Of a stretch of 42,329 nt of DNA, positions 2,793 through 23,646 are shown one piece after another. The notes under the pieces are model-generated. The model searched no databases, was not told where the DNA came from, and saw only the letters and a program-made list of their open reading frames with translations. The stretch is from a virus. Each line of letters starts with the position of its first letter. Within the stretch, counting starts at the first letter, position 1. The stretch spans positions 1 to 42,329 of the IMG/VR virus record IMGVR_UViG_3300042453_000903. One strand, given 5' to 3'. Both the position numbers and the translations under genes were made by a program.

Positions 2793-2958
2793 GCACGACT
2801 GGCAGCCGCCGCCGGCCGGGCAGGGGACGCTCGCCGTCTGCGCCAAGTGCGGCGCTCGCCGGCGCCCGCCGGCGACTGCCGAGCCCTGCGACTACGCCCG
2901 CGCGCTGCATCCCGCGCCGGCGCGAGCGACCGAGTACGACCCTCACGAGGAGCGATGA
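2776..2958 (+). CDS. Small hypothetical protein with a CxxC motif
   Basis: A 60-aa ORF that overlaps the terminase 3' end by 17 bases and whose stop overlaps the next start (ATGA at 2955). VCAKCGARRRPP followed by PCDYARAL gives three cysteines, which could form a small zinc site. The N-terminus is proline-rich. Its tight overlap on both sides argues for translation. No function is recognised; it could assist packaging or head assembly given its neighbours. Confidence 0.55.
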   Translation: MTRSPEHDWQPPPAGQGTLAVCAKCGARRRPPATAEPCDYARALHPAPARATEYDPHEER

Positions 2959-3182
2959 CCATGTGCATGTCGAGCCCCAAGGTGCCGGCGCCGCCGCCGC
3001 CCCCGCCGCCGCCGCCCGAGCTCCCGAAGGAGATGGACGTCGCAGCGCGGACCGCGCGCTCGAACGAGCGCCAGCGCGCCGCGCTGGCCGCCGGCCGGGC
3101 GTCGACGATCCTGACCGGGCCGCTCGGCGCGAGCGACACGGCGGCGACGACCGCCGCCGGCAAGACGCTCCTGGGGCAGTGA
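2955..3182 (+). CDS. Small virion-region protein with a polyproline run
   Basis: A 75-aa protein from ATG 2955 (ATGA overlap with the upstream stop). An ATG at 2961 is an alternative start that would give MCMSSPK. It carries nine consecutive prolines near residues 13-21, then a helical segment and a C-terminal RASTILTGPLG...KTLLGQ. The RGRASTILT...KTLLG ending is familiar from short proteins beside portal genes in many podovirus-like phages. Its role is unknown; a head or connector accessory is plausible. The proline run may need EF-P for efficient translation. Confidence 0.7.
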   Translation: MTMCMSSPKVPAPPPPPPPPPELPKEMDVAARTARSNERQRAALAAGRASTILTGPLGASDTAATTAAGKTLLGQ

Positions 3183-3183
3183 C

Positions 3184-4890
3184 ATGAACCGGCGCGAGCA
3201 TTTCGAGCGACGGAAGGCGGCGCTCGTCAACGAGCGCGCGTCGTTCATCACGCACTACCGCGAGCTGTCAGACTGGATCAGCCCGCGCCGCGGGCGGTTC
3301 TTCGTGCAGGACCGCAACAAGGGCGACAAGCGCAACGCGCGGATCATCAACTCGTCGGCGACGATGGCGCTGCGCACGCTGTCGAGCGGCATGATGGCGG
3401 GCATCACCTCGCCGGCCCGACCGTGGTTCCGGCTCGCGACGCCCGACCGGGACATGATGGAGTTTGGCCCGGTCAAGATGTGGCTGGCCGCGGTCGAGAC
3501 GCGCATGCGCGAGGTGTTCGCGGGCTCGAACATCTACAACCAGCTGGCCGTGCTCTACCGCGAGCTCGGGCTGTTCGGCACCGGGTGCATGACCGTCCTC
3601 GAGGATTTCGACGACGTCATCCGCATCTACAACCACACGGCCGGCAGCTACATGATCGGCCAGTCGTCGCGCCTCCAGGTCGACACGCTCTATCGCGAGT
3701 TCGACATGACCGTCGGCCAGGTCGTGTCGCAGTTCGTGTTCGGGGGCCAGCGCAACGCGAAGCCGGACTGGAGCGTCGCGTCGCCGTCGATCAAGAACCT
3801 GTGGGACCGCGGCAGCGTCGACAGCTGGGTGACGGTCGTGCATGCGATCGAGCCCAACGACGAGCGCGACCTGGGCATGAAGGACGCGCGCAACAAGCCC
3901 TATCGCTCGGTCTATTACGAGATCGGCGCCACGGGCGACACGATGCTGCGCCAGTCGGGCTTCGACGAGTTCCCGGCGATGGCCCCGCGCTGGGACGTGA
4001 CCGGCGAGGACATCTACGGCACCGACTGCCCAGGCATGACGGCGCTGGGCGACGTCAAGGCGCTGCAGATCGAGGAGAAGCGCAAGGCTCAGGCGATCGA
4101 CAAAATGTCGAACCCGCCGCTCTCCGGGCCGGCGACGCTGCGCAACGTGCCGGTGTCGAGCCTGCCCGGCGGGCTCACGATCTACGACCAGGGCGAGCGG
4201 CAGGCGCTGGCGCCGGTATACCAGGTCGATCCGCGCATCCAGGAGCTCATGCTCGACATCCAGCGCACCGAGCAGCGGATCGAGCGGGCCTTCTACGCCG
4301 ATTTGTTCTTGATGCTCTCGATGTCCGATCGGCGGCAGATCACGGCGCGCGAAGTCGAGGAGCGCCACGAGGAAAAGCTCTTGATGCTTGGGCCGGTCCT
4401 CGAGCGCTTGCACAACGAGCTCCTCGACCCGCTGATCGACCGGACCTTCGCCGTCATGCTGCGCGCGTCGACCGACGGCAACGGGCGCTGGCTTGATCGC
4501 GCGGTGATCCCCGAGCCGCCGCAGGAACTGCGCGGCGTCGACCTCAAGGTCGAATACATCTCGATCCTGGCGCAGGCGCAGAAGGCGGTCGGCACGGTCG
4601 GGATCGAGCGCATCGCCGGCTTCGTCGGTGGCATCGCGGCGCTCAACCCCGAGGTCGTCGACAAGCTCGACCTCGACCAGATGGTCGACGACTACGGCGA
4701 GCTCACGGGCGTCAGCCCCAAGCTGGTGCGGCCCGACGACGACGTCGTCGCGCGCCGCGCGCAGCGCGCCAAGCAGGTGGCCGCGCAGCAGGCGATCGCG
4801 CAGGCGCAGCCGATGGCAGAGACCGCGAAGACGCTGGCCGAGGCCAAGCCGGACGGCGAGGACATGCTGTCCCGGCTGACCGGTCTGTGA
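3184..4890 (+). CDS. Portal (head-to-tail connector) protein
   Basis: A 568-aa protein starting two bases after the previous stop. The N-terminal region, with HYRELSDWISPRRGRFF, then NSSATMALRTLSSGMMAGITSPARPWFRL, is characteristic of the podovirus head-to-tail connecting protein family. The size fits (usually 500-580 aa). Twelve subunits should form the ring through which DNA passes, on which the terminase docks and on which the tail is built. The C-terminus is helical and alanine/glutamine-rich (about 515-560), as expected for the barrel end. Confidence 0.93.
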   Translation: MNRREHFERRKAALVNERASFITHYRELSDWISPRRGRFFVQDRNKGDKRNARIINSSATMALRTLSSGMMAGITSPARPWFRLATPDRDMMEFGPVKMWLAAVETRMREVFAGSNIYNQLAVLYRELGLFGTGCMTVLEDFDDVIRIYNHTAGSYMIGQSSRLQVDTLYREFDMTVGQVVSQFVFGGQRNAKPDWSVASPSIKNLWDRGSVDSWVTVVHAIEPNDERDLGMKDARNKPYRSVYYEIGATGDTMLRQSGFDEFPAMAPRWDVTGEDIYGTDCPGMTALGDVKALQIEEKRKAQAIDKMSNPPLSGPATLRNVPVSSLPGGLTIYDQGERQALAPVYQVDPRIQELMLDIQRTEQRIERAFYADLFLMLSMSDRRQITAREVEERHEEKLLMLGPVLERLHNELLDPLIDRTFAVMLRASTDGNGRWLDRAVIPEPPQELRGVDLKVEYISILAQAQKAVGTVGIERIAGFVGGIAALNPEVVDKLDLDQMVDDYGELTGVSPKLVRPDDDVVARRAQRAKQVAAQQAIAQAQPMAETAKTLAEAKPDGEDMLSRLTGL

Positions 4891-6955: not shown

Positions 6956-7399
6956 ATGATCCTCGACGAACGCACCGAGTTTGCCGACGCCACGGCGCTC
7001 GGCACCGCCGGCACCGGCCGCCAGCTGGTCGGAGACGTCATCGACACGGGTGGCGACGGCGTCAACTACATCGACAACCTCTGGCTCGAGATCCAGGTGG
7101 ACACGTCGGTGACGTCCGCGGGCGCCGCGACCGTCTCGTTCGAGCTCGTCTCGGACGCGGCCGCCGCGATCGCCACGGACGGCAGCGCGTCGCTGCACTT
7201 CAAGTCGGCCGACATCGGGAAGGCGACGCTCGTCGCCGGCTACGAGGCGGTCTGCGTGCAGCTGCCCAAGGGCGTCTACGAGCGCTACCTGGGCATCATC
7301 GCCAACGTCGGCACCGCGGCGCTCACGGCCGGGAAGATCAACGCCTTCCTGACGCCGAACCCGTCCGCGATCCGCGCCTTCCCCGACGCGACCAACTGA
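6956..7399 (+). CDS. Capsid cement protein (Bbp16-like)
   Basis: A 147-aa protein with an AAAGGA ribosome binding site just before its start. It opens MILDERTEFADATAL and is then mostly predicted beta strand (TAGAATVSFELVSD-type segments, with YLGIIANVGTAALTAGKINAFL near the end). This matches the Bbp16 cement protein family of BPP-1, which trims the capsid surface as a jellyroll. Its place directly after the capsid gene supports the role. Confidence rests on motif memory plus gene order. Confidence 0.8.
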   Translation: MILDERTEFADATALGTAGTGRQLVGDVIDTGGDGVNYIDNLWLEIQVDTSVTSAGAATVSFELVSDAAAAIATDGSASLHFKSADIGKATLVAGYEAVCVQLPKGVYERYLGIIANVGTAALTAGKINAFLTPNPSAIRAFPDATN

Positions 7400-8351: not shown

Positions 8352-10633
8352 CCCGGCTGATCCAGCCGAGCTTCGCCGCGGGCGAGATCGGGCCGGCGCT
8401 CTATGGCCGGGTCGACGTGTCGAAGTACGCGGTCGCGCTGCGCACCGCGAAGAACGTCTTCGTGCGGCCGCATGGCGGCGTCGCGAACCGCGCGGGCTTG
8501 CGCTACGTCGGGCCCGCGCGCGCGCACAATGCCAAGCCGCGGCTGATCCCTTTCCGGTTCTCGACGACCCAGACCTACGTCCTCGAGTTCACCGACCTGC
8601 GCATGCGGGTGATCAAGGACGGCGGCCACGTCCTCGAGGCGGCCAAGGCGATCACCGGAGCCACGCAGGCAAACCCAGTGGTGATCACGTCGACGGCGCA
8701 CGGGTTCTCCAACGGCGACGAGGTCTACATCACGAGCGTGGCCGGCATGACCCGGCTGAACGGCCGACGCTTCAAGGTCGCCAACGTCGCGGCGAACACG
8801 TTCGAGCTCACGGACCAGGTCACCGGGGCCAACGTCGACGGCACGGGCTTCGCGGCCTGGACGTCCGGCGGCACGGCTGCGCGCGTCTACACCCTGACGA
8901 CGCCATACGCCCAGGCCGACCTGGCGACGCTCAAGTTCGTGCAGAGCGCTGACGTGATGACGCTTGTGCATCCGTCCTACGACCCGCGCGAGCTCTCGCG
9001 CACGGGGCACGCTGCGTGGTCGATCGCGACCATCACCTTCGCGCCGTCGATCGCCACGCCGACGGGCTGGTCTGGCAGCGGCACGGCGGGAAGCGAGACC
9101 TACAAGTACCGGATCACTGCGGTGAAGTCCGAGACGTTCGAGGAGAGCCTGGCGCAGGACGTCACGGTTGCGAGCGTGGCGGCGCTGTCGAGCACGAACA
9201 AGATCACGCTGACGACCGGCGCGCCGACCACGGGCGCGGCGAAATATTCGGTCTACCGCCAGAAGAACTCTGGCCTCTACGGCTTCATCGGCTCGACCGA
9301 GGGCACGACCTTCGTCGACGACAACGTCGCGCCAGACACCGAGCAGACGCCGCCGACAGCGCGCAATCCGTTTTCGGCGACCGGGGACAAGCCCGGCGCG
9401 GTCACCTACTACGAGCAGCGGCGGGTCTTTGGCGGGTCGAACAACAAGCCGGACACCAGCTACTACAGCCAGACCGGCAACACCGCGAACATGAGCGTGT
9501 CGGATCCAACGCGCGACGACGACGCGATCACGGCGACGCTCACCGCGCGCGAGGTCAACCAGATCCGGCATTTCGTGCCGCTCAACGACCTGATCGTGAT
9601 GACGTCGGGTTCGGAGTGGCGCGTGTCTGCCGGCAGCGACAGCGGGTTCTCGGCTGCCACGCTGCGCCAGCGCCCGCAGTCATACTGGGGCGCGAGCCAC
9701 GTTCCGCCGATCGTCGTCGGCAACACGGTGCTGTTCGTGCAGGACCGCGGCAGCATCGTGCGCTCGCTCGCCTACGCGCTGGAGAGCGACGCCTATGACG
9801 GCGCCGACCTCACGATCCTGGCGCCGCACCTGTTCGAGAACCGCACGATCTCGGAGTGGGCCTACGCGCAGATCCCGCACTCGGTGATCTGGGTCGTGCT
9901 GTCGGACGGGACGGCGCTGTCGCTGACCTGGAACAAGGAGCAGCAGGTCGTCGCGTGGTGCCGCCACGAGACCGACGGCTTCTTCGAGAGCGTGGCCTCG
10001 ATCCCCGAAACCGCCGACAACGAAGACGCGGTCTACTTCGTCGTGCGCCGGACGATCAACGGGCAGACCGTGCGCAACGTCGAGCGCCTCGACAAGCGGC
10101 TGGTGACGGCGGTCGAGGACGCCTTCTTCGTCGACTGCGGCGCGACCTACTCGGGCGCTGCGGCGACCGTGATCTCTGGCCTCGATCACCTCGAAGGCCG
10201 CGCGGTGGCGGTGCTGGCCGACGGCAACGTCGTGGCCGGGAAGACCGTGGCGAACGGCGCGATCACGCTGCCGCGCGCGGCGACGAAGGTGCATGTCGGG
10301 CTGGCCTACACGTCGGACATCGAGACGCTCAACCTCGAGCTCTCGATGCGCGGCATGCCGACGGCGCAGTCGATCAACAAGAAGATCTCCCGCGTGTCGG
10401 TGCGGTTCCAGCGTTCGCGCGGCCTGTTCATCGGGCCCGATTTCGACGCGCTGTCGGAGATGAAGTGGCGCGAGAACGAAGACTACGGCGAGGCGACGCA
10501 GCTGCTGACCGGGGACAAGGACCAGCACCTGCTGCCATCGTGGAACACGAACGGGCGGATCGCCATCCGGCAGAGCTACCCGCTGCCGATGGAGATCCAG
10601 GCGGTGATCCCCGATGTCGACTTCGGCGGCTGA
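8348..10633 (+). CDS. Large tail protein, probable tail tubular protein B (nozzle) analogue
   Basis: A 761-aa protein. I take ATG 8348 (MTRLIQPSFAAGEIGPALYGR), which overlaps the micro-ORF stop and has GGAGG upstream, rather than a longer upstream extension. The opening, followed by YAVALRTAKNVFVRPHGGVANRAGLRYVG, is common to large tail proteins lying after the adaptor gene in many short-tailed phages. About residues 100-180 form a beta-rich domain of the FCCH-like type (ITSTAHGFSNGDEVYI). Order and length (T7 gp12 is 794 aa) suggest the nozzle role. The end overlaps the next gene by 20 bases. Confidence 0.75.
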   Translation: MTRLIQPSFAAGEIGPALYGRVDVSKYAVALRTAKNVFVRPHGGVANRAGLRYVGPARAHNAKPRLIPFRFSTTQTYVLEFTDLRMRVIKDGGHVLEAAKAITGATQANPVVITSTAHGFSNGDEVYITSVAGMTRLNGRRFKVANVAANTFELTDQVTGANVDGTGFAAWTSGGTAARVYTLTTPYAQADLATLKFVQSADVMTLVHPSYDPRELSRTGHAAWSIATITFAPSIATPTGWSGSGTAGSETYKYRITAVKSETFEESLAQDVTVASVAALSSTNKITLTTGAPTTGAAKYSVYRQKNSGLYGFIGSTEGTTFVDDNVAPDTEQTPPTARNPFSATGDKPGAVTYYEQRRVFGGSNNKPDTSYYSQTGNTANMSVSDPTRDDDAITATLTAREVNQIRHFVPLNDLIVMTSGSEWRVSAGSDSGFSAATLRQRPQSYWGASHVPPIVVGNTVLFVQDRGSIVRSLAYALESDAYDGADLTILAPHLFENRTISEWAYAQIPHSVIWVVLSDGTALSLTWNKEQQVVAWCRHETDGFFESVASIPETADNEDAVYFVVRRTINGQTVRNVERLDKRLVTAVEDAFFVDCGATYSGAAATVISGLDHLEGRAVAVLADGNVVAGKTVANGAITLPRAATKVHVGLAYTSDIETLNLELSMRGMPTAQSINKKISRVSVRFQRSRGLFIGPDFDALSEMKWRENEDYGEATQLLTGDKDQHLLPSWNTNGRIAIRQSYPLPMEIQAVIPDVDFGG

Positions 10634-11688: not shown

Positions 11689-13433
11689 TGGCCCGCGTCC
11701 CGCAGCTGACCGACGCGGTGGCGCTGCGCCCGGTCGAGGCGCCCTACCAGCGCATCAACACGACGGTCGACGATTTCGGGATGGGCGCCGCGCGCGCGGC
11801 CGACATGGCCGCGCAGCGGATCGACCGTTTCGGCGACACGCTGGCTCGGCGCGCGGTCGAGCTCCAGATCGAGGACAACGAGAACGACGCCAAGCGCATG
11901 GACGTGGAGCTGTCCAAGCGCATCAGGTCGATCGGCTTCGGCGACGGCACCGCGCAGAACCAGGGCTACTACGCGCTGCGAGGCCAGGCTGCGATCGACG
12001 CCTTCCCCGACGTGCGCGAGCAGGTCGAGCGCGCCAAGGCCGAGGTGCTGGGCACGGCGCGCAACCAGCGCTCGCGCGACCTGTTCGCGCTCAAGGCCGA
12101 GGAGCGGGTGTCGTCGAAGCTCGAGGGCGCGACGCGGCACCTCATGGGCGAGCGGCGCACGGCGGCCGACAACCTGTCGCAGGCGCGCCTCAACGAAGCG
12201 GTGGACGACGCCGCGGCGAACTACACGAACCAGAACAAGATATTGGAGTCGATGGCCGTCGCGCGCGCCGAGATCGCCAGCATGGCTGAGCGCAACGGAT
12301 GGTCCCCCGAGGTCGCGGCGTCCAAGCTGCAGGAGGCGCGCAGCGCGATCCACAAGACGGTGATCGAGGCGGCGCTCGACCGCGCGCCCGGCTATGCGTC
12401 GTCGTACTACCAGGCGAACAAGGCCGACATCGACGGCCGGGAGCGCGCCAAGCTGGAGAAGGCGCTCGAGGCCTCGAGCATCCGCGGCGCGGCGCAGGCG
12501 GCAGAGGATCGGATCATGGGGCAGGGGCTGTCCGAGGCCGACGCTCTTGCCGAGGCGCGCAAGATCCGCGATCCCAAGCTGCGCGACGAAGCGGTGCAGC
12601 GCGTGACCATGCGCTACGGCGAGATCGCGCGCGTCGAGCAGCGCGAAGAGCGCGCCGTGCGCGACCGCGCGTGGCAGTCGCTCGTCGGCGGGTCGAAGGT
12701 CGACGACATCCCGGCGGCCGACCTGGCGCGCATGGATGGCACGACGATTTCCGCGATGCGCGCGTTCGAGGATCGCAGGTCGAAGGAAGGCCGCGGGTTC
12801 GCGCGGGTCGACGACCCTGCGACCGACGTGAAGATCCACCGGCTGTTCATGGACGACAAGGTGGCCTTCGCCGGGTACGACATGACCCAGCACTACGGCC
12901 AGCTGACCGAGGATCGCGTGCGCTACTGGCAAGCCCTGCAGCGCAGCGTCGACAGCCGGGCCGAGAAGGACGCGCAGAAGACGACCAGCTACGCGCTGGG
13001 CGATCGCATCGCCAAGACCTACCTCGACGCGGCGAAGATCCGCTACGGCGAGGGCACGCCCAAGAAGCAGGCCGAGCAGTCGCAGCGGGTGTTCGAGCTC
13101 GTGCGCGGCGTGGCCGACCAGTTCGCGGCGCAGGGCAAGCGGCCGACCGCCCAGGACTTCGACCGCGCGCTCAAGGAGCTCTTCCTCGATGGCACGCTCG
13201 TCGGCAGCGGCACGTTCTACGACGACAGGGTCAAGGCCTTCGAGGTCGTCGGCACCGAGCGGGCGCGGCAGTTCCAGCTGCGCGACGTGGCGGCCCAGAA
13301 GCAGCGGATCAGCGAAGTGACCGGCGTGCCGGCCGGCGAGGTCGAGAAGATCGCCAAGGCGCTGCAGAACGCGCGGCAGCCGGTGACGGCTGCCAACATC
13401 AAGAAGCTCTGGGAGGCCGGCAGTGGCCGATGA
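11688..13433 (+). CDS. Internal virion protein (T7 gp15-like)
   Basis: A 581-aa, mostly helical, charged protein following the gp14-like gene with a one-base overlap. It has coiled-coil-rich segments with many A, E, R and K residues, including LARRAVELQIEDNENDAKRMDVELSKR near residue 50. Order (gp13-, gp14-, gp15-, gp16-like), size and composition point to the core protein that forms the periplasmic part of the ejection conduit. No catalytic motif is seen. The 3' end overlaps the giant gene start by 11 bases. Confidence 0.65.
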   Translation: MARVPQLTDAVALRPVEAPYQRINTTVDDFGMGAARAADMAAQRIDRFGDTLARRAVELQIEDNENDAKRMDVELSKRIRSIGFGDGTAQNQGYYALRGQAAIDAFPDVREQVERAKAEVLGTARNQRSRDLFALKAEERVSSKLEGATRHLMGERRTAADNLSQARLNEAVDDAAANYTNQNKILESMAVARAEIASMAERNGWSPEVAASKLQEARSAIHKTVIEAALDRAPGYASSYYQANKADIDGRERAKLEKALEASSIRGAAQAAEDRIMGQGLSEADALAEARKIRDPKLRDEAVQRVTMRYGEIARVEQREERAVRDRAWQSLVGGSKVDDIPAADLARMDGTTISAMRAFEDRRSKEGRGFARVDDPATDVKIHRLFMDDKVAFAGYDMTQHYGQLTEDRVRYWQALQRSVDSRAEKDAQKTTSYALGDRIAKTYLDAAKIRYGEGTPKKQAEQSQRVFELVRGVADQFAAQGKRPTAQDFDRALKELFLDGTLVGSGTFYDDRVKAFEVVGTERARQFQLRDVAAQKQRISEVTGVPAGEVEKIAKALQNARQPVTAANIKKLWEAGSGR

Positions 13434-16400
13434 CGTCGACTATGACGCGCTCGCTTCGAGCCTGTTTCCCCAGCCCAAGGGCAAGCCGGACACCTCCCCG
13501 GCCGGGCCGGCGCCCGGCGACACCGACTACGACAAGGTGCTGCGCGACCTGACCGCAGGCCAGGCGGGCGCCAACCTCCGCGCGGTGCAGGGGCTCAACC
13601 CTGACCAGGCGGCGCGCGCGCAGGCGCTGTCGCGCGCGAGCGGCCTGCCGCTGCCGGCGGTCGAGGGCGCCGAGGACCAGGTCGAGGGCGAGGTACGCAG
13701 GCAGGCGGCCGAGGCCGCGCTGCAGGGTGCGCCGCGCGTCCAGATGTTCTTCTCCAACCCTGACTTCGCCAAGGTGGCGCACGACGACGCCGAGACGCTC
13801 AGCTGGCTCGAGCGCACCTGGGCGAAGATCCGCGACACGGCGGTCGAGGAGGCCGAGGGCGCGGCCAAGGGGTTCCGCCGCGGCATGATCACGACCGACC
13901 TGCGCGACGTCGGCCGGCGGCTGTTCTGGGGGCAGGCGACGCCCGAGGACGAGGCGCGCGTGGGCGAGCTCGAGAAGGCGCAGGAGCAGCTGGAGACCGA
14001 CGCCTACCTGTCGGCGGCAGGCGAGCAGATCCCGATCATGGGGTCGATCCTGGGCAAGGCGCTGCAGCGCGGCCTGCAGACCGGCATGGCCTTCGGTGGC
14101 GGTGCTGCCCTGCTGGGCCAGCTGGGCCCGCAGGCGGCGCTGCCCGAGGAGCTCGTGACGGTGCCGGCGGCGACCGCGACCGGCTTGGCGGTCGGCGGGC
14201 GGGCCGGGGCGCTCGAGGCCGCGTGGGAGCTCGAGACCTATCTGGCGTTCATCGAATACCGCGGGCTCAAGACCTCCGACGGCAGGCCCCTCGACAACGA
14301 CGTGGCGCGCGGCGCAGCCATGCTGGCCGGGACGGTCAACGCCGGCCTCGAGGCCTACGGGCTGTCGGCGATCCTCAAGCGCGTGCCGGGCGTCGCCGAG
14401 CTCGCGCAGCTGGGCGGGCGCAAGAAGGTGGCGGCCGCGATCGGCCAAGCCGCGGCGACCAGCCCTAGCTTCGCCGCGACGCTGGCGACCTTCGGCAAGC
14501 GCTATGCCGAGGGCATCGCGATCGAGAGCCTGACCGAGATGCTGCAGGAGCTTTCGACGGCGGCCTTCGCCGAGGTCGCCAAGATGGCCGACGGCGGTGC
14601 TTTCAAGGGGGCGGGCCTCGAGGACACGGTCGAGCGCGTGATCGACGCCGGCGTGCAGGCGGCGAAGGCGACGTCCGTGCTCGGGCTGCCGGGCCCGGCC
14701 ATGCAGGCTATGGCCGACCGCAGGAGGGCCACCAAGGCCGCCAGGGACGCGGAAGCGATCAGGGAGGCCGGAGATGCGGCCGACCTCTCCAAGCTCGCCC
14801 AGCGCGATCCTGAGCGCTTTGGCGAGGTGACCGGCGCCGTCCTGCGCGACCAGGGCGTTGACACAATCGCAATTCCGGCTGCCGCGCTGCAGGAGTTCTT
14901 CCAGGGCGCGCCCGAGGGCGGCGAGCAGGCGGTCGACCAGGCCACGCTCATGCGGAACCTGGGCGTGACCGACGAGCAGATGGCCGAGGCGCTGGCCGTG
15001 GGCGGCGACGTCCACATGACGCCCGAGGCCTTCGCGCAGCACATTCTCACAAACAAAGCCACGCGCGCCGGACTGACGGAGCACGTCCGGCTGGGCGTCG
15101 ACGGCATGACCGAGGCCGAGGCGAAGGAGTGGGAGGCCACGGGGCTCAGGGAGTCCATCGACGACATGGCCTCGCTGCTCGATTCGATGGAGAGCGGCAG
15201 GCGGGTCGAGGCCGCTCGGATCGAGACCGAGGTCGAGCGCATGATGATGGCCGCGGGCGAGGCGCGCGACACGGCGCGCTACGCCGCTGTCCTGACCGCC
15301 CAGCGCTACGCGGTGCGCGCCGAGCGAGCCGGGGTGTCGCCGCTCGAGCTCTGGCAGCAGGACAACCTGCGCATCGAGCGCGTGGGCGAGGCCAGCCGGG
15401 TCGTCGACGAGATCGACATCATCCTCGACAAGGCGCGCTCGCCGGACACGCTGCGTCTGCCCAAGACGCCGATCCTCGACATGCTGGCGCGCACGGGCGT
15501 CGACCCCAACTCGCCGCTTGCCGGCGAGCTCAAGGCGCTGGGCGTCACGGCGAAGACCCGGCCGGGCCTGTTCAAGGTCGGCGGGCGCCAGGCGGCAGAC
15601 AACCTGCCGTTGGCCGAAATGCCCTGGTTCACCGCCGACGAGGACGACGGCACCGGCAACTACGTCTCCGAAGCCGCGATCCTGGCGGCGGTGCGCGACG
15701 AGCTCGCGGGCAACCCGCGGCGCACGGCCGACGAGCAGACGCGCCTCGACGGTCGCGAGAACGACATCCGCAACCTCGAGGCGGACATCGAGCGCTACAA
15801 CGAGATGAGCGGCAACGCGCTGTCGATCGTGACGAGCTCGGCGGCCGAGATCCGCGACGCGCTGCAAGAACTGGCCGACCTTGAGGCGCGTGCGTTGCAG
15901 GGTTCGGGGCCGTCTTTCGACCAGACGGCGGATCAGTCGACGCAAGAGCAGCCGACCCAGATCCAGGCGTCAGCGGCGGCCCGGCCGACCGTGGTTTCAG
16001 CTAGCGTTGAGAACGCGGCCGCGTTCGACGGCGGGGCGTCGGAGATTTCGACATCACGCAAATGGGACACTGGCAGGCAGCTGAAGCTGGCGATGCAGGA
16101 GGCCGTGCTAGCCGCAGCGCGCGCGGCTGGCGTCAATCTGTCTTCGACCAGCCAAGAGACCAAAGCGTACCTCGCGAGAATGGTGGTGCGCGACGCGCTC
16201 GCCTCGCTCAAGACCAACGACAACGCCGTCGGCTGGTATGATCTGAAAACGCGCCAAGCGCTCGCTGTCATGGCGCTGGTGCATCCCGAAATTGCCACCG
16301 ACGAAAATGCCAGGTTTGCCTTCACATGGGCGCTCGCGGTCACCTCGAACGGCCAGCGTGTCGACGCCAATTTTGAGCTAGCGCAGAAGGTCTACGAGCG

Positions 16401-19400
16401 CATGAAGGCCGACCCGCAAGGTCGGATGCCGACAGACATCAAAGCTGGCAACGCGCAGAAGGCCATCAACAAGTCTCTGGAGCTCTACAACGAGCTGCGC
16501 GAAGCGTGGGGCGCGGACAACCTGCGGCGTTTCATGTTGTCCGATTTTTCGGTCGGCGAGATTTCGGCGATCGACAAGGATCTGACGCCAACGGGCGAGT
16601 GGTCCGAGCAGGTCGTGCGTGGCGCTGCGATACTTGGACCCAAGATCGGCAACGGGTTCTTCTCGAACCTCTACGGGTACTTCGACGCACTGACGATGGA
16701 CCGCTGGCTGGTCAGGTCTTGGGGCCGGTGGACAGGGACGCTGGTCGAGATCGACAGGATAGGCGTCTTGCGATCGCGATCGCGCCTGCGCGAGGCGATC
16801 GTCGGGCTGGACGTTGGAGACTTGGCGGCGAGGCTGCGCGCGGTTACGCGAGAGGGGAAACGCGGCGCGGTGCTGGAGGTCAAGCCGACAGATCGAGAGA
16901 ACCTGATCGCTGCCCTTGAGGGAATGGGGGAAGGCCCGAGCGATGCCCAGATCGACGCATTGTCGGCGTCGATCGCTAGGGCGTCCATGACGCCGCAGTT
17001 CCGCGACGCTATGGCGCTGGTGCCGGGTGGCGACGAGTTGCGCAAGTCTGGCAACAGCCTCGCCAAGTTTCTTGACGGCCAGAAGGAGCAGCCTGCCGGC
17101 CCCGGCGAGCGCGTGCTGATCCGCGAGGTGTTTGCGGACGCGCTGGGCCAGCTGCGCCAGCAGCCCGGCCTCCAAGGGCTGACGATGTCCGACCTACAGG
17201 CCGTGCTTTGGTACGCGGAAAAGAGGCTCTACGAGACCGCCAAGGAAGACGCCGTCGTCGGGGACGAGGCGGTTGAGCAGGGGCAAATTACGGGCTATGG
17301 TGACGACGAGGCTCCAGACTACGCGAATGCTGCGGCAGCAGTGGCGCGTGCGGCTGGTGTCTCCGAGCGCCGGATCAAGGCGGCGCTGAAAAGGGAAGAA
17401 GATGGACGCGCAGCAGCAGCACGATCTGGCAATGCTCAAGCGGCGCAAGGTGTCGCCGGGCAGCCGACAGAAGCTCGAGGCTTCGTTGGCCGAGAAAGGC
17501 GCCGGTTCATCGAAACTCGCGCCGTCTATCGGGCACGATCCAATCGCGACGGCGATGAGAAACCATCCTGGTCTTACGAGGGAAAAGGCCGAAGAGATGG
17601 CGGAGGCGTTCGGCTTCTAGTTCGCAGGCGCGGGCTAGGCGTCACGGTCGCGACCGAGTGGTCGCCAGGACGGAACCTCGCCAACACCTTCCGCGCCAAT
17701 GGCATGAAGGCGCCAACCTATTACGAGTTGGCGCAGGGCGACGCGCAGAACGCTGAAAGGTTCGCAGCTGCTATTGCAGCTGCAAGCTCGTCGCATGGTT
17801 TTGGCGCCGCGGTCTATGTGTATCCGGCGCAAGACTACGCCAACATGCGGCTTTTCCTGTCTGAAGACGGCAACGCCGGTTTCGCACTCAAGGCCGACGG
17901 CGACATCGTTTCAGTGTTTGGAGCAAGAGGGTCCGGCACCGGGCGCGCGACGATGGAACTAGCCGTCGCTGCAGGTGGACGAAAGCTCGACGCCTTCGAC
18001 ACGATGCTGCCGGAGTTCTATAGCGCGCACGGGTTTCGGGCCGTCTCCAGGCTTACATGGGACGACGAGCAGGCGCCAGCGAACTGGGACAAGCAGAAGT
18101 TCGGCGAATACAACAACGGCGAGCCCGACGTCGTCTTCATGGTGTACGACCCAACCTGGCAGGGTGAATACGCCAGGACTGACGGCAAGAGGTTCTCTGG
18201 CAGGAACGCCTACGGCAGGGCTGTGCAAGCCCAAGCATCGCAGACGATCGCGCCGGCGACGTTCGAGCAGTCCGGCGCGCCACGCGAGCGCGGCGTCTTC
18301 GCCGACGTCGAAGACCAGCTGGACGCTCTGGCGCAGGACATCGACGGCATCCGTGACGGCGAGTTCGACCCGGCCGCAGCGCGCAAGGTGCTCGACAAGC
18401 TGAGCGACGCCGACCGCGACGACCCCCGCGCGCGCATGCTGGATCGCGCCCTGCTGTGGCTCGACGGCCAGATCGACGCCGACCAGGACGCGGTCGCAGA
18501 GGAGATCGCGACGGTCCTTGAGCAGGCGCGGCAGATCGGCGAGATGCGCGCGGGCATGTCGGCGGCGGCGGGGCGTGGAACGCTCGAGCAACCCGCCCGC
18601 GGCTCGATCCAGTTCAACCCCGGCCAGATCATCATCCGGCTGGGCGCTGGTGCCGACCGGTCGACGTTCCTGCATGAGAGCGGGCACCTCTACCTTGAGC
18701 AGCTGCGCGCCGACGCTGCTGCCTATGGGGCCGGGCGCCCGCAGCTGGCGCAGGATCTCCAGACGGTCAATGACTGGTTCGCGTCCAATGCTGGCGCGAT
18801 CCGCCAGGAGGCGATCGCCTACGCGCGCAAGGCCGGCGACGCCGTGAGCGTGACGACGCTCGAGGCCATGACCGACGACCAGGTCGAGGCGATGGCGAAG
18901 GCTGGCGGTCTTGCCGGCATGCCGCGCACGGCATCGCCCGACGGCCACCTGGCGCGCGCCGCGCACGAGCAGTGGGCGCGCGGCACCGAGGACTACTTCC
19001 GCACCGGTTTGGCGCCGAGCGTGGCGCTGCAGGACGCCTTCAACAGGTTCCGCGCGTGGCTGGTGTCGATCTATGCCGCGCTGCGGCGCAGGCTTGGCGC
19101 CGAGCAGCTGTCCGTTCGGTTCTCGCGCGAGGTCAGAGAGGTCATGGACCGCATGCTCGCGACCGACGAGGAGATCGCGCTTGTCGAGCAGCAATACAAC
19201 CTGCGCGCCATGTTCGCCTCTCCCGAAGAGGCCAGCATGTCCCCCGAGCGCTTCGCGGCTTACCAGGCCGCGGTGATGGCGGCGGGCGAGGCTGCGCGCA
19301 CCGAGCAGCTGCGCCGGCACATGCGCGAGGTCGAGCGCGAGAAGGCGGCGTGGTGGCGAGAGGAACGGGCCAAGCTGCGCGAGGAGGTCGCGGCCGAGGT

Positions 19401-22400
19401 GCGCGCGAGGCCGGTGTTCCTCGCCATCCACGCGCTGGCGGCGGGCAAGATGCCCGACGGCCAGCCCCTGCCGGCGGGGCTGGTGCAGCCGCGCATGAGC
19501 CGCGAGGCGGTCGTGGCGCTGCTCGAGAACCAGAAGTCGCTGTCGAGGCTGCCGCGGGTGAAGGGCCGCACGGTCTACGCGACGGCCCAGGGCGAGAGCG
19601 GCTCGCACCCCGACGTCGTGGCGTCCTTCTACGGGTTCGACAGCGGGCGCGACATGCTCATAGCGATGATGAACACGAACGGCGTCGAGACGACGATCGA
19701 CCGCGAGACCGACGAGCGGATGCGCGAGCGGCACGGCGACATGCAGGTCGACGGCACGGCGGTCGACAAGGCGGTCGAGAGCGCGCACACGGACAAGCGC
19801 GGCGACGTCCTGATCGCCGAGCTCAACGCGCTGCAGAGCGGCGGCGGCACGAAGCTGAAGCCCGCGTTCCTGCGCCAGTGGGCGCGCGAGCGCATCGCCG
19901 GCCGGAAGGTTTCCGAGCTCCAGCCGCAGCGTTTCCTGATGGCCGAGCGCAAGGCTGGGCGCGCTGCCGACCGGGCGCTGGCGTCGGGCGACCGCACCGA
20001 GGCGCTCAAGGCCAAGTTCCAGCAGGCGCTGAACTTCTACATGGCGCACGAGGCCTACAAGGCGCGGGCCGAGATCGAGAAGGCGGTCGACTACCTGTCC
20101 GGCTTCACGCGCGCCGCGGCCAAGTTCCCGGCGCTCGAGGCCGGCTACGTCGACCAGATCCGCACGATCCTCGACGCCTACCAGCTGGGGCCGCAACTGA
20201 TGGAGCGCACGCGCGTGCGGCTTGAGATGCAGGCGGTGCTGGACTGGATCGAGCGCCAGCGCCAGGACGCGGGCGCGACGATCGAGATGCCGCAGCGGAT
20301 CATCGACGCGGACGAGCGGACCAACTACCAGGCGCTCACGCTCGACGAGTTCCGCACGCTGCGCGACACGATCAAGAACCTGGAGGCGCAGGGGCGGCTC
20401 GCGAAGACTGCGCTGATCGACGGCGAGGAGTTCGCCATCTCCGAGATGGCGAACGATATTGCCGCGAGCGCTGAGCGCAACCCGCAGCTGCCACGCATGG
20501 CGCGCCGCGCCGTCGAGCAGAACCCCGGCGTCCTCGACCGCGCGCGCAGCAAGCTCGCATCGTTCGACGCCGCGCTGCGCAAGGTCGAGCTACTCGTCGA
20601 GCAGGTCGACGGCCAGCGCATGGGGCCGCTCTGGAGGTTCCTGTTCAAGCCGTTCGCTGACGCGGAGGCCGCGCGCAAAGACATGACGCTGCGGGTGACG
20701 CAGCGGGTCATGGACGCGATCGACAACCTGCCGACGCGCTCTCGCCTGGCCGAGCGCATCACGGTCCCGCTGCTCGGACGGACGTTCGCGCGATCGGACC
20801 TGATCATGATGGCGCTCAACGTCGGAAACGAAAGCAACTTCGAGAAGATGATCGAGGGCTCGGAGAAGGACGTCACCGATGGTGCGACGCCGTTCACGGT
20901 GGCCGGCGTCGACGAGGCGCTCGCCAACCTGACGGCCGAGGAGTGGACCTTCGTGCAGGAGGTCTGGGATGCGTTCGAGGCGATGTGGCCCCAGGTGCGC
21001 GAGGTCTACCGCCGCGAGAACGGCGTCGCGCCCGAGCGCGTCGATGCCCGCACGATCGAGACCCGCTACGGGCAGTCGCTGCGCGGCGGCTACTTCCCGA
21101 TGATGTACGACCCCTCGCGCTCTGTGCAGGCGCGCGACATCGAGGGCAAGACGGCGCTCGAGGCGATGCAGTCGACGGTCGTGCGCGCGTCGGTCAACTC
21201 CAGCATGACCAAGGCGCGCACCGGGTTCTCGGCGCCCGTGCTGCTCGACATCACGGCGCTGCCCAACCATATCGAGCGCACTGCGCACTTCATCACGCAC
21301 TACGAGCCCGTGCGCATCGCGCGCAAGCTGCTGGCTCGCCAGCGCGTGGTGCGCGCGCTCAACAACCGCGTCGGGCCCGAGCTCTACGACACGCTCAAGG
21401 CCTGGGTGCAGGAGCTCGCGGCGAACGGCCAGCCGGTGGCGCCGACGTCGATCGGCGGCCGGCTCGTCGAGGCCATGCGCCGCAACGCGACCGTGGCGAT
21501 CATGGGCCTGAGCTACACGACGATGGTCGCGCAGGTGTTCGGCCTCGCCAACTCGATCGACGCGCTGTCGCGCACGCCCGGCGGCGGGTACTCGCCGCGG
21601 CGCGGCACGACCGCGATGCTGGGCGGGCTGGTGCGCTACCTCGCGTCGCCCGCGCAGGTGCGCGCGCAGGTCTTCGCGGCGTCTGGCGAGATGCGGCACC
21701 GGCTGCAGAACACCGACCGCGACATCCGCCACGCGCTGCAGCAGCTGTCGGGCAAGCGCGGGGCGTGGTCCCAGATGCAGCGCTTCAGCCTGATGGGCAT
21801 TGCCGGCATCCAGCTCTACATGGTCGACTTGCCGACGTGGCTCGCGGCCTATGACCAGGCCATCGCGCGCGGGGCGACGACCGACGAGGCCGTCGACGCC
21901 GCCGACAACATCCTGCGCACGAGCCAGACCGCCGGCGGGATCAAGGATCTCGCGGCGATCCAGCGCGAGCGCGGCGTGATGACCGCGCTGACCATGTTCT
22001 ATTCGTACTTCAACCTGCTCTACAACCTGCAGCGCCAGGCGCTGGGCAACGTGCGCGGCGTGCGCGACGTGCCGCAGCTGGCCGCGCGGGCGTTCATCCT
22101 GATGGCGGTGCCCATCATGGTCGACGCGCTCGTCAAGCGGCAGGGGCCGGACGAGGACAAGGAAGAGACGCTGGCCGGCTTTCTGGCGGCGAAGGCCGCG
22201 GTCTACGCGATGTCGTCGCTGCCGTTCCTGCGCGACCTCGCCGGGCTGGCCGAAGGGTTCGGCTACAAGCCGACCCCGCTCGACGGGTTCGGCAAGGCGC
22301 TGGGGGCGTCCGTCAAGGGCATCGCCGAGGCGATCGACAACGGCGAGCTCGACGCCAAGGCGCTCAAGGCGCTGGTGTCGGCGCTCGGGTTCGGGGCCGG

Positions 22401-22509
22401 CGTGCCGGCGACGCAGGTCAACCGGGTGATCTCGGCGGCCGACGCGATGTTCGAGGGTGAAGACGTGGGCGTCTACGACTTCCTCGCGGGACCGAAAAAG
22501 GACAAGTAG
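13423..22509 (+). CDS. Giant internal virion (ejection) protein with metallopeptidase motif
   Basis: One uninterrupted ORF of 3028 aa from GTG 13423 (GGGAGG at about 13411). It occupies the T7 gp16 position, the largest core protein. Residues 1-830 are helical and include glycine/alanine-rich hydrophobic segments around 205-260. Residues about 850-1605 are an inserted module (separate entry). HESGH at 1751-1755, in STFLHESGHLYLEQL, is a zinc-metallopeptidase HExxH motif as found in large polyvalent phage and element proteins. The region after about 2000 is long and helical; the last third contains MTALTMFYSYFNLLYNLQRQ and a hydrophobic AFILMAVPIMVDAL, typical of C-terminal large-polyvalent-protein domains. 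It probably enters the host with the DNA; the peptidase could cut peptidoglycan-associated or cytoplasmic targets. Linkers SFDQTA, TFEQSGAP and TLEQPARGS separate the modules. Confidence 0.85.
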   Translation: MADDVDYDALASSLFPQPKGKPDTSPAGPAPGDTDYDKVLRDLTAGQAGANLRAVQGLNPDQAARAQALSRASGLPLPAVEGAEDQVEGEVRRQAAEAALQGAPRVQMFFSNPDFAKVAHDDAETLSWLERTWAKIRDTAVEEAEGAAKGFRRGMITTDLRDVGRRLFWGQATPEDEARVGELEKAQEQLETDAYLSAAGEQIPIMGSILGKALQRGLQTGMAFGGGAALLGQLGPQAALPEELVTVPAATATGLAVGGRAGALEAAWELETYLAFIEYRGLKTSDGRPLDNDVARGAAMLAGTVNAGLEAYGLSAILKRVPGVAELAQLGGRKKVAAAIGQAAATSPSFAATLATFGKRYAEGIAIESLTEMLQELSTAAFAEVAKMADGGAFKGAGLEDTVERVIDAGVQAAKATSVLGLPGPAMQAMADRRRATKAARDAEAIREAGDAADLSKLAQRDPERFGEVTGAVLRDQGVDTIAIPAAALQEFFQGAPEGGEQAVDQATLMRNLGVTDEQMAEALAVGGDVHMTPEAFAQHILTNKATRAGLTEHVRLGVDGMTEAEAKEWEATGLRESIDDMASLLDSMESGRRVEAARIETEVERMMMAAGEARDTARYAAVLTAQRYAVRAERAGVSPLELWQQDNLRIERVGEASRVVDEIDIILDKARSPDTLRLPKTPILDMLARTGVDPNSPLAGELKALGVTAKTRPGLFKVGGRQAADNLPLAEMPWFTADEDDGTGNYVSEAAILAAVRDELAGNPRRTADEQTRLDGRENDIRNLEADIERYNEMSGNALSIVTSSAAEIRDALQELADLEARALQGSGPSFDQTADQSTQEQPTQIQASAAARPTVVSASVENAAAFDGGASEISTSRKWDTGRQLKLAMQEAVLAAARAAGVNLSSTSQETKAYLARMVVRDALASLKTNDNAVGWYDLKTRQALAVMALVHPEIATDENARFAFTWALAVTSNGQRVDANFELAQKVYERMKADPQGRMPTDIKAGNAQKAINKSLELYNELREAWGADNLRRFMLSDFSVGEISAIDKDLTPTGEWSEQVVRGAAILGPKIGNGFFSNLYGYFDALTMDRWLVRSWGRWTGTLVEIDRIGVLRSRSRLREAIVGLDVGDLAARLRAVTREGKRGAVLEVKPTDRENLIAALEGMGEGPSDAQIDALSASIARASMTPQFRDAMALVPGGDELRKSGNSLAKFLDGQKEQPAGPGERVLIREVFADALGQLRQQPGLQGLTMSDLQAVLWYAEKRLYETAKEDAVVGDEAVEQGQITGYGDDEAPDYANAAAAVARAAGVSERRIKAALKREEDGRAAAARSGNAQAAQGVAGQPTEARGFVGRERRRFIETRAVYRARSNRDGDEKPSWSYEGKGRRDGGGVRLLVRRRGLGVTVATEWSPGRNLANTFRANGMKAPTYYELAQGDAQNAERFAAAIAAASSSHGFGAAVYVYPAQDYANMRLFLSEDGNAGFALKADGDIVSVFGARGSGTGRATMELAVAAGGRKLDAFDTMLPEFYSAHGFRAVSRLTWDDEQAPANWDKQKFGEYNNGEPDVVFMVYDPTWQGEYARTDGKRFSGRNAYGRAVQAQASQTIAPATFEQSGAPRERGVFADVEDQLDALAQDIDGIRDGEFDPAAARKVLDKLSDADRDDPRARMLDRALLWLDGQIDADQDAVAEEIATVLEQARQIGEMRAGMSAAAGRGTLEQPARGSIQFNPGQIIIRLGAGADRSTFLHESGHLYLEQLRADAAAYGAGRPQLAQDLQTVNDWFASNAGAIRQEAIAYARKAGDAVSVTTLEAMTDDQVEAMAKAGGLAGMPRTASPDGHLARAAHEQWARGTEDYFRTGLAPSVALQDAFNRFRAWLVSIYAALRRRLGAEQLSVRFSREVREVMDRMLATDEEIALVEQQYNLRAMFASPEEASMSPERFAAYQAAVMAAGEAARTEQLRRHMREVEREKAAWWREERAKLREEVAAEVRARPVFLAIHALAAGKMPDGQPLPAGLVQPRMSREAVVALLENQKSLSRLPRVKGRTVYATAQGESGSHPDVVASFYGFDSGRDMLIAMMNTNGVETTIDRETDERMRERHGDMQVDGTAVDKAVESAHTDKRGDVLIAELNALQSGGGTKLKPAFLRQWARERIAGRKVSELQPQRFLMAERKAGRAADRALASGDRTEALKAKFQQALNFYMAHEAYKARAEIEKAVDYLSGFTRAAAKFPALEAGYVDQIRTILDAYQLGPQLMERTRVRLEMQAVLDWIERQRQDAGATIEMPQRIIDADERTNYQALTLDEFRTLRDTIKNLEAQGRLAKTALIDGEEFAISEMANDIAASAERNPQLPRMARRAVEQNPGVLDRARSKLASFDAALRKVELLVEQVDGQRMGPLWRFLFKPFADAEAARKDMTLRVTQRVMDAIDNLPTRSRLAERITVPLLGRTFARSDLIMMALNVGNESNFEKMIEGSEKDVTDGATPFTVAGVDEALANLTAEEWTFVQEVWDAFEAMWPQVREVYRRENGVAPERVDARTIETRYGQSLRGGYFPMMYDPSRSVQARDIEGKTALEAMQSTVVRASVNSSMTKARTGFSAPVLLDITALPNHIERTAHFITHYEPVRIARKLLARQRVVRALNNRVGPELYDTLKAWVQELAANGQPVAPTSIGGRLVEAMRRNATVAIMGLSYTTMVAQVFGLANSIDALSRTPGGGYSPRRGTTAMLGGLVRYLASPAQVRAQVFAASGEMRHRLQNTDRDIRHALQQLSGKRGAWSQMQRFSLMGIAGIQLYMVDLPTWLAAYDQAIARGATTDEAVDAADNILRTSQTAGGIKDLAAIQRERGVMTALTMFYSYFNLLYNLQRQALGNVRGVRDVPQLAARAFILMAVPIMVDALVKRQGPDEDKEETLAGFLAAKAAVYAMSSLPFLRDLAGLAEGFGYKPTPLDGFGKALGASVKGIAEAIDNGELDAKALKALVSALGFGAGVPATQVNRVISAADAMFEGEDVGVYDFLAGPKKDK
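15990..18230 (+). other. Inserted polyvalent module inside the giant virion gene
   Basis: Within the giant frame, about residues 856-1605 differ from the flanks. Codon third positions carry visibly more A and T, and the domains are those of mobile-element polyvalent proteins. The first part contains VGWYDLKTRQALAVMALVHP and later GPKIGNGFFSNLYGYFDALT, which resembles the DUF7178-type domain as I remember it. The second part, with LFLSEDGNAGFALKADGDIV and KLDAFDTMLPEFYSAHGFRA, looks like an N-acyltransferase-type effector domain. Similar FEQ-type linkers lie at both ends, suggesting insertion by recombination at linker DNA. Functions are unknown; injected effectors are an inference. Confidence 0.6.
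17402..17620 (+). CDS. Nested ORF (72 aa) in a second frame of the giant gene
   Basis: An ATG-started ORF in the +1 frame relative to the giant gene, preceded by AAAAGGGAAG (about 17389-17398), a good ribosome binding site. The product begins MDAQQQHDLAMLKRRKVSPG and ends AMRNHPGLTREKAEEMAEAFGF, a balanced, soluble composition. It resembles short hypothetical proteins that I associate with DUF7178-type genes in phages and plasmids, where they would be separate ORFs. The giant frame over the same bases is arginine/glycine-rich, as expected when another frame is constrained. Either both are translated or this is a relic of a formerly separate gene. Confidence 0.5.
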   Translation: MDAQQQHDLAMLKRRKVSPGSRQKLEASLAEKGAGSSKLAPSIGHDPIATAMRNHPGLTREKAEEMAEAFGF

Positions 22510-22515
22510 CCGAGG

Positions 22516-22553
22516 CCAGGTTCCCGCGGTGGCGGGCGGCGGATAGATTGACA
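22516..22553 (+). promoter_or_regulatory. Bipartite repeated element, copy 3 (candidate late promoter)
   Basis: CCAGGTTCCC (22516-22525), 18 bases, then TAGATTGACA (22544-22553), same spacing as the copies at 1123 and 4891. If TAGATT is the -10, transcription would begin near 22556 and leave TGAGG before the tail fibre ATG at 22573. The right part also overlaps TGACATTCTCGCAA (22549-22562), 12 of 14 identical to the repeat beside the ribbon-helix-helix gene at 41328. Confidence 0.5.
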
Positions 22554-22572
22554 TTCTCGCAATGAGGTCGCC

Positions 22573-23646
22573 ATGACGGTCCTGTCGCAAGCACGGAAGG
22601 TCACCTATCAGGGCAACGGGGTGGCGAGCTCGTTCTCGTTCTCGTTCTCGGTCTACGCCTCGACGGACCTGGTCGTGACGAAGCTCGACAGCGCAGGGGT
22701 CGAGACCGTGCTGACCGAGGGCGCCGGGACCGGCAACTACTCGGTGACGGTGGCTTCCTACCCCGGCTCGGGATCCATCACGTTCCCGGCGAGCGGCGCG
22801 TCGCGACTGGCGAGCGGAGAATACATCACGATCAAGCGCGTGCTGACGCTCGAGCAGGCGACCGACCTCGACAACCAGGGCGGCTACTTCCCCGACGTCC
22901 AGGAGACGGCGCTCGACAAGCTCCTGATCATCGACCTGCAGCAGCAGGAGGAGATCGACCGCGCGATCAAGTTCCCCGTGTCGGACGGCGCGCTGTCCAC
23001 TCAGTTCCCGGCGGCGGCGCAGCGCGCCAGCAAGTTCGCAGCGTTCAACGCGGCGGGCGAGCCGATCGCGGCAGCAGGCGTCACGGGCGTGCCGGTGTCG
23101 GCGTTCATGGCGAACGTCCTTGACGACGCCACGGCGGGCGCGGCGCGCACGACGCTGGGCTCGGGCGCAACCGGCGACGCCCTGTTCACGGCCGCGAGCG
23201 CTGGCGCGGCGCGCACGACGCTGGGTGCGGGCGCGACGGGCGACGCTCTGTTCACCGCAGCGAGCGCGGCGGCAGCGCGCACGACGCTGGACGCTGCTGC
23301 GTTGAGCCAGTCGCAGTCGTGGGGCGCCGGCCAGACGCCGCTGACCGCGACGCTGACGGACGCGGCGACGGTGAACTGGGACATGGCGACGGCGCAGGTC
23401 GCCGCGGTGACGTCCGCGGCCGCGCGCACGTTCGCGGCCCCGACGAACCAGGTGGCGAACAGGTTCTACGCGCTGTCGATCACCAACAGCGGAGGGGCGT
23501 GGGCGCATGCGTTCAACGCGGCGTTCATCTTCGACACCAACGACGGCACGCCGGGCTCGTTCCCGGCGAGCGGGCGCCTGCATCTGATCTTCCGCAGCGA
23601 CGGCACGAACCTGCGCGAGTGGGGCCGCCGGCAGGTGGCGTCCTAA
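22573..23646 (+). CDS. Tail fibre protein with T7 gp17-like N-terminus
   Basis: A 357-aa protein. Residues 1-150 (MTVLSQARKVTYQGNGVASS, then GEYITIKRVLTLEQATDLDNQGGYFPD-type text and ETALDKLLIIDLQQQEEIDRAI) match the T7 tail fibre N-terminal domain that anchors a fibre to the tail. Next come AARTTLG repeats (about 188-240) typical of fibre shafts. The C-terminal 100 residues form a beta-rich end. It probably serves as an adaptor for the larger receptor-binding protein encoded one base-overlap downstream (TAATG). Confidence 0.88.
   Translation: MTVLSQARKVTYQGNGVASSFSFSFSVYASTDLVVTKLDSAGVETVLTEGAGTGNYSVTVASYPGSGSITFPASGASRLASGEYITIKRVLTLEQATDLDNQGGYFPDVQETALDKLLIIDLQQQEEIDRAIKFPVSDGALSTQFPAAAQRASKFAAFNAAGEPIAAAGVTGVPVSAFMANVLDDATAGAARTTLGSGATGDALFTAASAGAARTTLGAGATGDALFTAASAAAARTTLDAAALSQSQSWGAGQTPLTATLTDAATVNWDMATAQVAAVTSAAARTFAAPTNQVANRFYALSITNSGGAWAHAFNAAFIFDTNDGTPGSFPASGRLHLIFRSDGTNLREWGRRQVAS
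23137..23292 (+). repeat. 66-bp tandem repeat in the tail fibre gene
   Basis: Two full 66-bp units (23137-23202, 23203-23268) and a partial third encode GAARTTLGxGATGDALFTAASA. The AARTTLG motif is widespread in trimeric fibre shafts. Repeat number could change by slippage or recombination, altering shaft length. Confidence 0.85.

Follow-up and report, generated by a model that had tools for sequence, protein, structure and literature searches.

A small gene very probably embedded in the +1 frame of a giant polyvalent phage gene and conserved in many related phages

Does a 72-codon reading frame that lies inside a much larger phage gene encode a protein of its own? This question is raised by a locus in the window studied here, which is the whole stretch of DNA that was analysed, a virus record of 42,329 bases with a G+C content of 0.69. 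Ten ORFs of the window were scanned against PHROGs and gave, in the listed order, terminase, connector, major head protein and tail protein, followed by an internal virion protein family, an endolysin family, the giant ORF that contains the small frame, and tail-fibre families. We read this gene order as podovirus-like. The giant ORF comes after the internal virion protein family gene and the endolysin-family gene, and from this order its product is probably a virion or ejection protein. It belongs with the polyvalent (LPD) proteins, as it holds an LPD22 domain above the cut-off together with phrog_9880 and phrog_2563 parts (Table 1). The phrog_9880 matches cover the giant on either side of a cassette that is described below, ending near 15384 and restarting near 18952. 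Three antisense ORFs (13399-15945, 17959-20196 and 20590-23583 on the minus strand; 848, 745 and 997 aa) lie opposite or partly opposite the giant gene. These are probably shadow frames driven by the G+C content.

Table 1. Coordinates of the giant ORF, its modules and the embedded gene in the window.
Feature	Coordinates	Strand	Details
Giant ORF	13423..22509	+	3028 aa; polyvalent; LPD22 and phrog_9880 matches
LPD22 domain (PF18834) of the giant	13564..13836	+	E 1.2e-17; 64.3 bits, cut-off 28.6
Transferable cassette (upstream domain, embedded gene, acetyltransferase-like module)	15868..18240	+	common to the giants of L039 and L033
Upstream domain of the giant	16054..17403	+	about 440 aa, mostly helical; at least 565 relatives; model pLDDT 90.8
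Shine-Dalgarno-like AAAAGGGAAG of the embedded gene	17389..17398	+	dG -5.3; ATG at 17402
Embedded small gene (very probable)	17402..17620	+	72 aa; ATG start, TAG stop; +1 frame of the giant ORF
Acetyltransferase-like module (phrog_2563) of the giant	17752..18144	+	E 5e-16; just past the embedded gene

The ORF was found where the earlier note had placed it, running from ATG to TAG in a second frame of the giant ORF, and its product terminates in NHPGLTREKAEEMAEAFGF. The ribosome binding site that had been noticed before the ATG is present, though modest for this window, where 26% of 488 ATGs have a Shine-Dalgarno sequence as strong. The R/G-rich character ascribed to the giant frame over the ORF was likewise seen: arginine and glycine make up 36% of the residues there versus 17% in the entire giant protein. 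When synonymous codons were resampled with the giant protein kept, the nested frame was open in 78% of the trials (P 0.78). Because of this openness and the ordinary Shine-Dalgarno sequence, the evidence from the window alone does not lift the ORF beyond chance. The unremarkable openness would suit a shadow ORF, never translated and arising as a side effect of a linker rich in R and G within a gene of high G+C content.

Homologues were sought in other phages. Tblastn of the 72 aa against 50,697 phage records returned a single match, in Limnohabitans phage DC33, where the homologue likewise lies within a giant CDS and in the same relative frame. Successive scans of viral contigs gave 6, then 42 and then 61 loci, with many contigs repeated. 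The giant frame was open across the small ORF in all 42 viral loci that were examined, some of them clipped by contig ends. Two of these are exceptions in the extent of the giant frame, which in L040 stops where the overlap ends and in L037 opens only just ahead of the small ORF. In the latter (1012-1503) a deletion of the domain end and the small-ORF start joins both in the nested frame, which is either a real variant or an assembly fault. Among the further 19 loci, 15 were nested in the same frame, including L100 with a giant-frame stop like that of L040; L101 and L102, also among the 19, are distant members in the same frame. L103 and L104 were dropped as unrelated, their tail-like match being within an ORF that is HNH-like by eye (2769-3218 and 4247-4696, respectively) and whose end resembles the small-protein tail (MKRHPGLTREEALEM).

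The search was extended by way of the upstream domain, which has at least 565 relatives in viral contigs. A +1-frame small ORF followed the domain in each of the best 80, which were kept, and all 56 of those that were inspected with sequence had such an ORF of at least 35 aa near the domain end. From a search led by L182, 80 loci were kept and 79 analysed, 71 of which had a +1-frame ORF of at least 35 aa. The other eight lacked a start giving that length: L236 and L291 are clipped by contig ends, and L249, L252, L253, L257, L287 and L288 have the motif in the +1 frame, though the range searched contained no start for an ORF of 35 aa. L101, whose upstream domain is 25% identical to that of the window, led to 30 loci of its type; 29 were analysed (L326 is clipped) and all 29 were positive, and the other 50 loci of this search (match identity 26-30%, many contigs met before) were left out of the count. 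A +2-frame ORF at that place was found in none of the 164 loci tested (0/56 and 0/108). As contigs recur between searches, the locus counts do not sum to distinct phages.

Several variants were met on the way. Two GenBank phages with the domain (L105 and L106) have a different small +1 ORF after it, with Shine-Dalgarno dG values of -12.0 and -11.0. Longer embedded ORFs of 124-135 aa occur in L183 (4801-5172), L225-L234, L240, L254, L269 and others; these have an AGGAGGT-type Shine-Dalgarno sequence, no GLT tail and, in some cases, TTG starts. In 288 genomes of the phylum of G001 there were three weak matches (E 0.0012-0.0026) inside frames of about 930 aa.

Homologues of the 72-aa sequence are thus found in viral contigs, nested in the same place and frame: wholly inside another ORF and with both frames open, save for L040/L100 and L037. 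The earlier note had also worried about an indel. As both frames are kept in many contigs and in phage DC33, an indel or assembly error in the window is disfavoured and was rejected as an explanation.

It was then asked how the two frames are held by selection. For the synonymous-change analysis 38 loci were taken, of which 32 were left after dereplication; the measure is the share of codons that differ though the amino acid is the same, by bin. In a diverse set (14 loci, 91 pairs) giant-frame synonymous change was 0.47-0.70 in the bins outside the ORF and 0.43, 0.25, 0.37 and 0.28 in the four bins that touch it, rising again to 0.55 in the bin that follows. The corresponding values for the DC33-type set (18 loci, 153 pairs) were 0.15, 0.09, 0.12 and 0.06 over the ORF and 0.10-0.52 outside; here the edge is less sharp, with low values also in the bin preceding the ORF (0.12) and in the two final bins (0.14 and 0.10).

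Codon resampling was applied to 15 chosen loci. With the giant proteins kept, the nested-frame z was 5.6-11.1 in all 105 pairs, and with the nested proteins kept, the giant-frame z was 2.5-10.5. Across the nested ORF the median z was 7.4 and the minimum 4.4, and the frame was free of stops in 15/15 loci. In the same frame, median z values of -0.1 to 1.4 were obtained for eight control windows of the giant. Single close pairs in the control windows reached z values of 5.5-10.9. Over the overlap, the +2 frame, which is non-coding and has stops in 14/15 loci, had a median z of 4.0. Since these values are also raised, kinship and plain nucleotide conservation give part of the signal. Deep pairs (12 x 9 loci) were analysed too. 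In the nested alignment they favour the nested frame, with a median z of 5.5 versus 2.9 for the giant frame. When aligned on the giant protein only, the overlap had a median z of 4.8 and exceeded 3 in 101/108, versus 0.2 and 0.6 in the flanking controls.

The earlier note had proposed a look at synonymous-site constraint in both frames, and purifying selection was indeed found in both. In 23 non-overlapping pairs the nested dNN/dNS was 0.54 (bootstrap 0.45-0.63) and the giant dNN/dSN 0.78 (0.60-0.92). Over all pairs, whose counts are not independent as the loci are related, the values for nested and giant frame were 0.47 and 0.28 below 8% divergence, where the giant frame looks more constrained, 0.37 and 0.55 at 8-20%, and 0.60 and 0.65 at 20-35%. 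On these sequence comparisons both frames behave as coding, with the nested frame held tighter except in close relatives.

These results bear on two readings in which no protein is made. A mere shadow ORF has become extremely improbable. The conservation of the nested frame exceeds what the giant protein accounts for, there is selection against nested amino-acid change, and the frame is open too in relatives with a G+C content of 0.42-0.50 (the group of L006, L033, L039, L041 and L094). Moreover, chance openness per locus is only 0.13-0.61 in L006, L033, L039, L041, L080, L087 and L094. On the codon resampling, the controls, the dual-frame selection and the deep pairs, chance was rejected as the source of the ORF. 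The second reading holds that the DNA or RNA itself is constrained, by an RNA structure or a regulatory or packaging site. Such a site would lower synonymous change too, and the raised z of the +2 frame over the overlap agrees with it, but the stop and the reading frame are retained despite length changes (71-82 aa), the deep pairs are similar at the amino-acid level and nested-synonymous changes are tolerated more than nested-nonsynonymous ones. We consider it just as improbable as the shadow ORF.

If the nested frame is translated, how do ribosomes reach it? Automatic start choice in the 80 best loci gave 68 ATG, 2 GTG and 10 failures; several choices were wrong and were corrected by eye. 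By hand, 43 starts were curated as ATG or GTG (38 ATG, 5 GTG), a tally that is partly by construction because the starts were picked as such. A Shine-Dalgarno dG of -5 or below preceded 29/43 curated starts versus 470/2855 other nearby ATGs in the same frame (Mann-Whitney p 1.3e-8, not corrected for kinship). Of the 14/43 curated starts with a dG above -5, five are in the L006/L033/L039/L041/L094 group and nine elsewhere.

With a programmed +1 frameshift, part of the ribosomes on the giant frame would move into the nested one and terminate at its stop, and the 72 codons would give a truncated giant a different C terminus. A +1 shift would reach the nested frame, which stands at +1 relative to the giant in the loci seen; the deletion in L037 joins the domain to the nested frame, and in six loci of the L182 search the motif is present but a suitable start is lacking. 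Against this, conservation in the family starts at the hand-curated ATG or GTG, and Shine-Dalgarno sequences are enriched at the homologous starts. By our tally the automatic start lies 0-6 codons past an in-frame stop in 48/80 loci, which leaves scant room for a frameshift. Furthermore, a copy in a bacterial genome (L045, see below) retains the small ORF without the giant frame, and no common slippery sequence was seen by eye in the upstream stretches that were inspected. The pattern of start sites seems to suit internal initiation better, and frameshifting is regarded as very unlikely.

Since it is conserved in many related phages, the embedded ORF very probably encodes a real, unannotated protein. 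We put the probability at roughly 0.9 that it is a true gene embedded in the +1 frame, with its own internal start and a small helical product of about 70 aa beside the giant polyprotein. The suggestion that a separate protein may be made is in this way strengthened by the homologues, the conserved frame and the conservation of start and Shine-Dalgarno sequence at the level of the group. Ribosomes would initiate independently at the nested ATG (GTG in some relatives) within the giant mRNA and make the small helical protein in addition to the giant polyprotein. Read in the giant frame, this stretch encodes an R/G-rich linker that joins two modules. The small protein would accumulate and may act with the giant: made together with it, the small protein might, for instance, be a chaperone for the modules that its gene straddles or might inhibit them, before or during ejection.

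The small protein of the window had no family match in Pfam, PHROGs, NCBIfam or PADLOC, and its best match among PDB sequences had an E value of only 1.4. The structure model has four short helices at low confidence (pLDDT 72.8, pTM 0.27). An Rz1-like o-spanin identity was rejected, as the lipobox cysteine is missing: none of the 37 aligned small proteins (window and 36 relatives) has any cysteine.

The start of the embedded gene coincides with the end of the upstream domain. For the copy of this domain in the window there was no Pfam or NCBIfam family above the cut-off and no PHROG, and Foldseek against the PDB gave nothing at E <= 0.001. In a second-look alignment the best solved structure was PaMx11 gp46, a 5-PmdU/DNA-base glycinyltransferase (Z 7.9, rmsd 4.8, 216 aligned), at a Z that helical models often reach; the next unrelated structure had a Z of 5.2. 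Predicted viral proteins related to the domain carry names that include large polyvalent, ART-PolyVal-like and RelA/SpoT, and one relative, the domain copy of L183, aligns over 53 residues with phrog_3842, a family of unknown function (E 1.7e-4). The earlier note had likened the small protein to those found with DUF7178-type genes, a likeness that proved weak. The upstream domain of L182 matches DUF7178 (PF23802) weakly over 37 residues, but at 13.8 bits, under the cut-off of 27, and the domain of the window has no match. DUF7178 was also found in 0/5 of a further record set at E <= 10, and the literature search yielded nothing on it.

On its other side the embedded gene is followed by the acetyltransferase-like module, relatives of which in Streptomyces phages carry the annotation 'acetyltransferase' and which has relatives in many phages outside this context. 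Blastp of whole giants aligned window residues 823-1606 with L039 and 816-1587 with L033 at 47% identity, with no other match at E 1e-3. As these otherwise different giants share only that part with the giant of the window, the upstream domain, the embedded gene and the acetyltransferase-like module are deemed a transferable cassette.

The two halves of the small gene face the two modules. The N-terminal half ('AQQxHD') lies directly past the upstream helical domain, and the C-terminal half ('GLT...GF') directly before the acetyltransferase-like domain, with which it travels. The latter was scored with a tail profile made from A7 and a module profile made from 8 seeds in 188 loci, of which 7 were clipped and 181 scored. 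Tail and module were both present in 97 loci and both absent in 77; seven loci had the module only and none the tail only. Of these seven, L151 does possess the tail, lengthened by extra residues, and L182 and L220-L224 end in a variant of it. In a previous count of 83 loci with a cruder pattern, both were present in 64, neither in 12, the module only in 7 and the tail only in 0. Such co-travel is expected, since one stretch of DNA encodes both. The linkage is compatible with the putative immunity or partner role of the small protein that the earlier note had raised, yet it also follows from the overlap itself. PADLOC had no match for the small protein of the window or its two flanking domains. 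We regard it as a speculative and rather unlikely possibility that the small protein is an obligatorily co-made partner of the giant, one half matched to each flanking domain, and that it keeps the enzymes folded or silent, both in the cell that produces the phage and in the virion. If this were true, an injected giant weapon and its safety device would be written on the same DNA and could not be separated or mispaired by recombination.

How the arrangement arose was considered as well. The earlier note had offered a fusion of three former genes. In that case the upstream-domain, small and acetyltransferase-like genes were once separate, and the giant frame later came to cross the small gene in a different frame. 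The cassette is modular, being the sole part that the L039 and L033 giants share with that of the window, and the acetyltransferase-like module has relatives in other contexts in many phages; the nested frame is better conserved in the 23 independent pairs and the deep pairs, and in L040 and L100 the giant frame stops where the overlap ends. In L040 (9001-9866) and L100 (6001-6246) the small ORF extends 10 residues past that stop, and L040 has its acetyltransferase-like part on an ORF of its own (9291-9866), a natural split variant. This split looks secondary because L040 closely matches the fused L039, and in close pairs it is the giant frame that is more constrained.

A scan of genome contigs yielded L045 and L046. 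In L045 (8977-9222), from a Spartobacteria MAG of which another contig has a giant, the small gene is intact and stands alone, while the giant frame is interrupted. Near it, a sigma-factor-like ORF and a terminase-small-like ORF were recognised by eye, and there is also a tRNA-Arg (6995-7071). The broken giant frame still resembles giants (z 3.7-6.4). L045 was therefore rejected as a stand-alone ancestor: the giant-frame peptide is retained in it, which makes it a secondary copy derived from a giant. L046 (9001-9114), from a Lacunisphaera MAG, is a 37-aa N-terminal fragment of the small gene with stops in the giant frame, and ARAGORN found no tRNA beside it. No unfused ancestor was found among the loci examined. 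Overprinting of a pre-existing linker accounts for the data too, and we give the three-gene fusion somewhat less than an even chance.

Embedded +1 genes are already a known kind. The model is Rz1 within Rz, the two-component spanins of lambda and T7 (PMC6139136), likewise a small phage gene wholly within the +1 frame of a larger one and often missed by gene callers. Rz1 differs in that it is a lipoprotein of the lysis pathway within the gene of its membrane partner; the host gene here lies in the structural region and encodes a giant polyvalent protein, with the overlap at a module junction. According to a survey of virus genomes, +1 overlaps have a median length of 14 nt (PMC8903798), so that a fully embedded gene of 219 nt is long for its kind. 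The giant, which holds LPD22, resembles the polyvalent proteins of phages and conjugative elements with their LPD families, in which GNAT domains are known and for which solo GNATs are reported with late structural genes (PMC5512222). The terms 'overlapping' and 'internal initiation' are absent from the main text of that paper, as is the word 'overlap' from the main text of the DC33 paper (PMC12195039), and among the listings and abstract openings returned by a literature search no description of the embedded gene was found. In three annotated relatives (DC33, MW202640 and MW202722) the feature tables show only the giant CDS at the locus.

This embedded-gene family, conserved across many environmental phages, thus appears to be missing from annotation, because it is located inside a much larger gene. 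As an isolated phage, Limnohabitans phage DC33, carries the embedded gene, the idea is testable. If the gene is what it appears to be, giant phage polyproteins can conceal second proteins at module junctions. The locus would then be a natural example of dual-coding constraint in dsDNA phages and may offer a route into the function of polyvalent ejection-type proteins.
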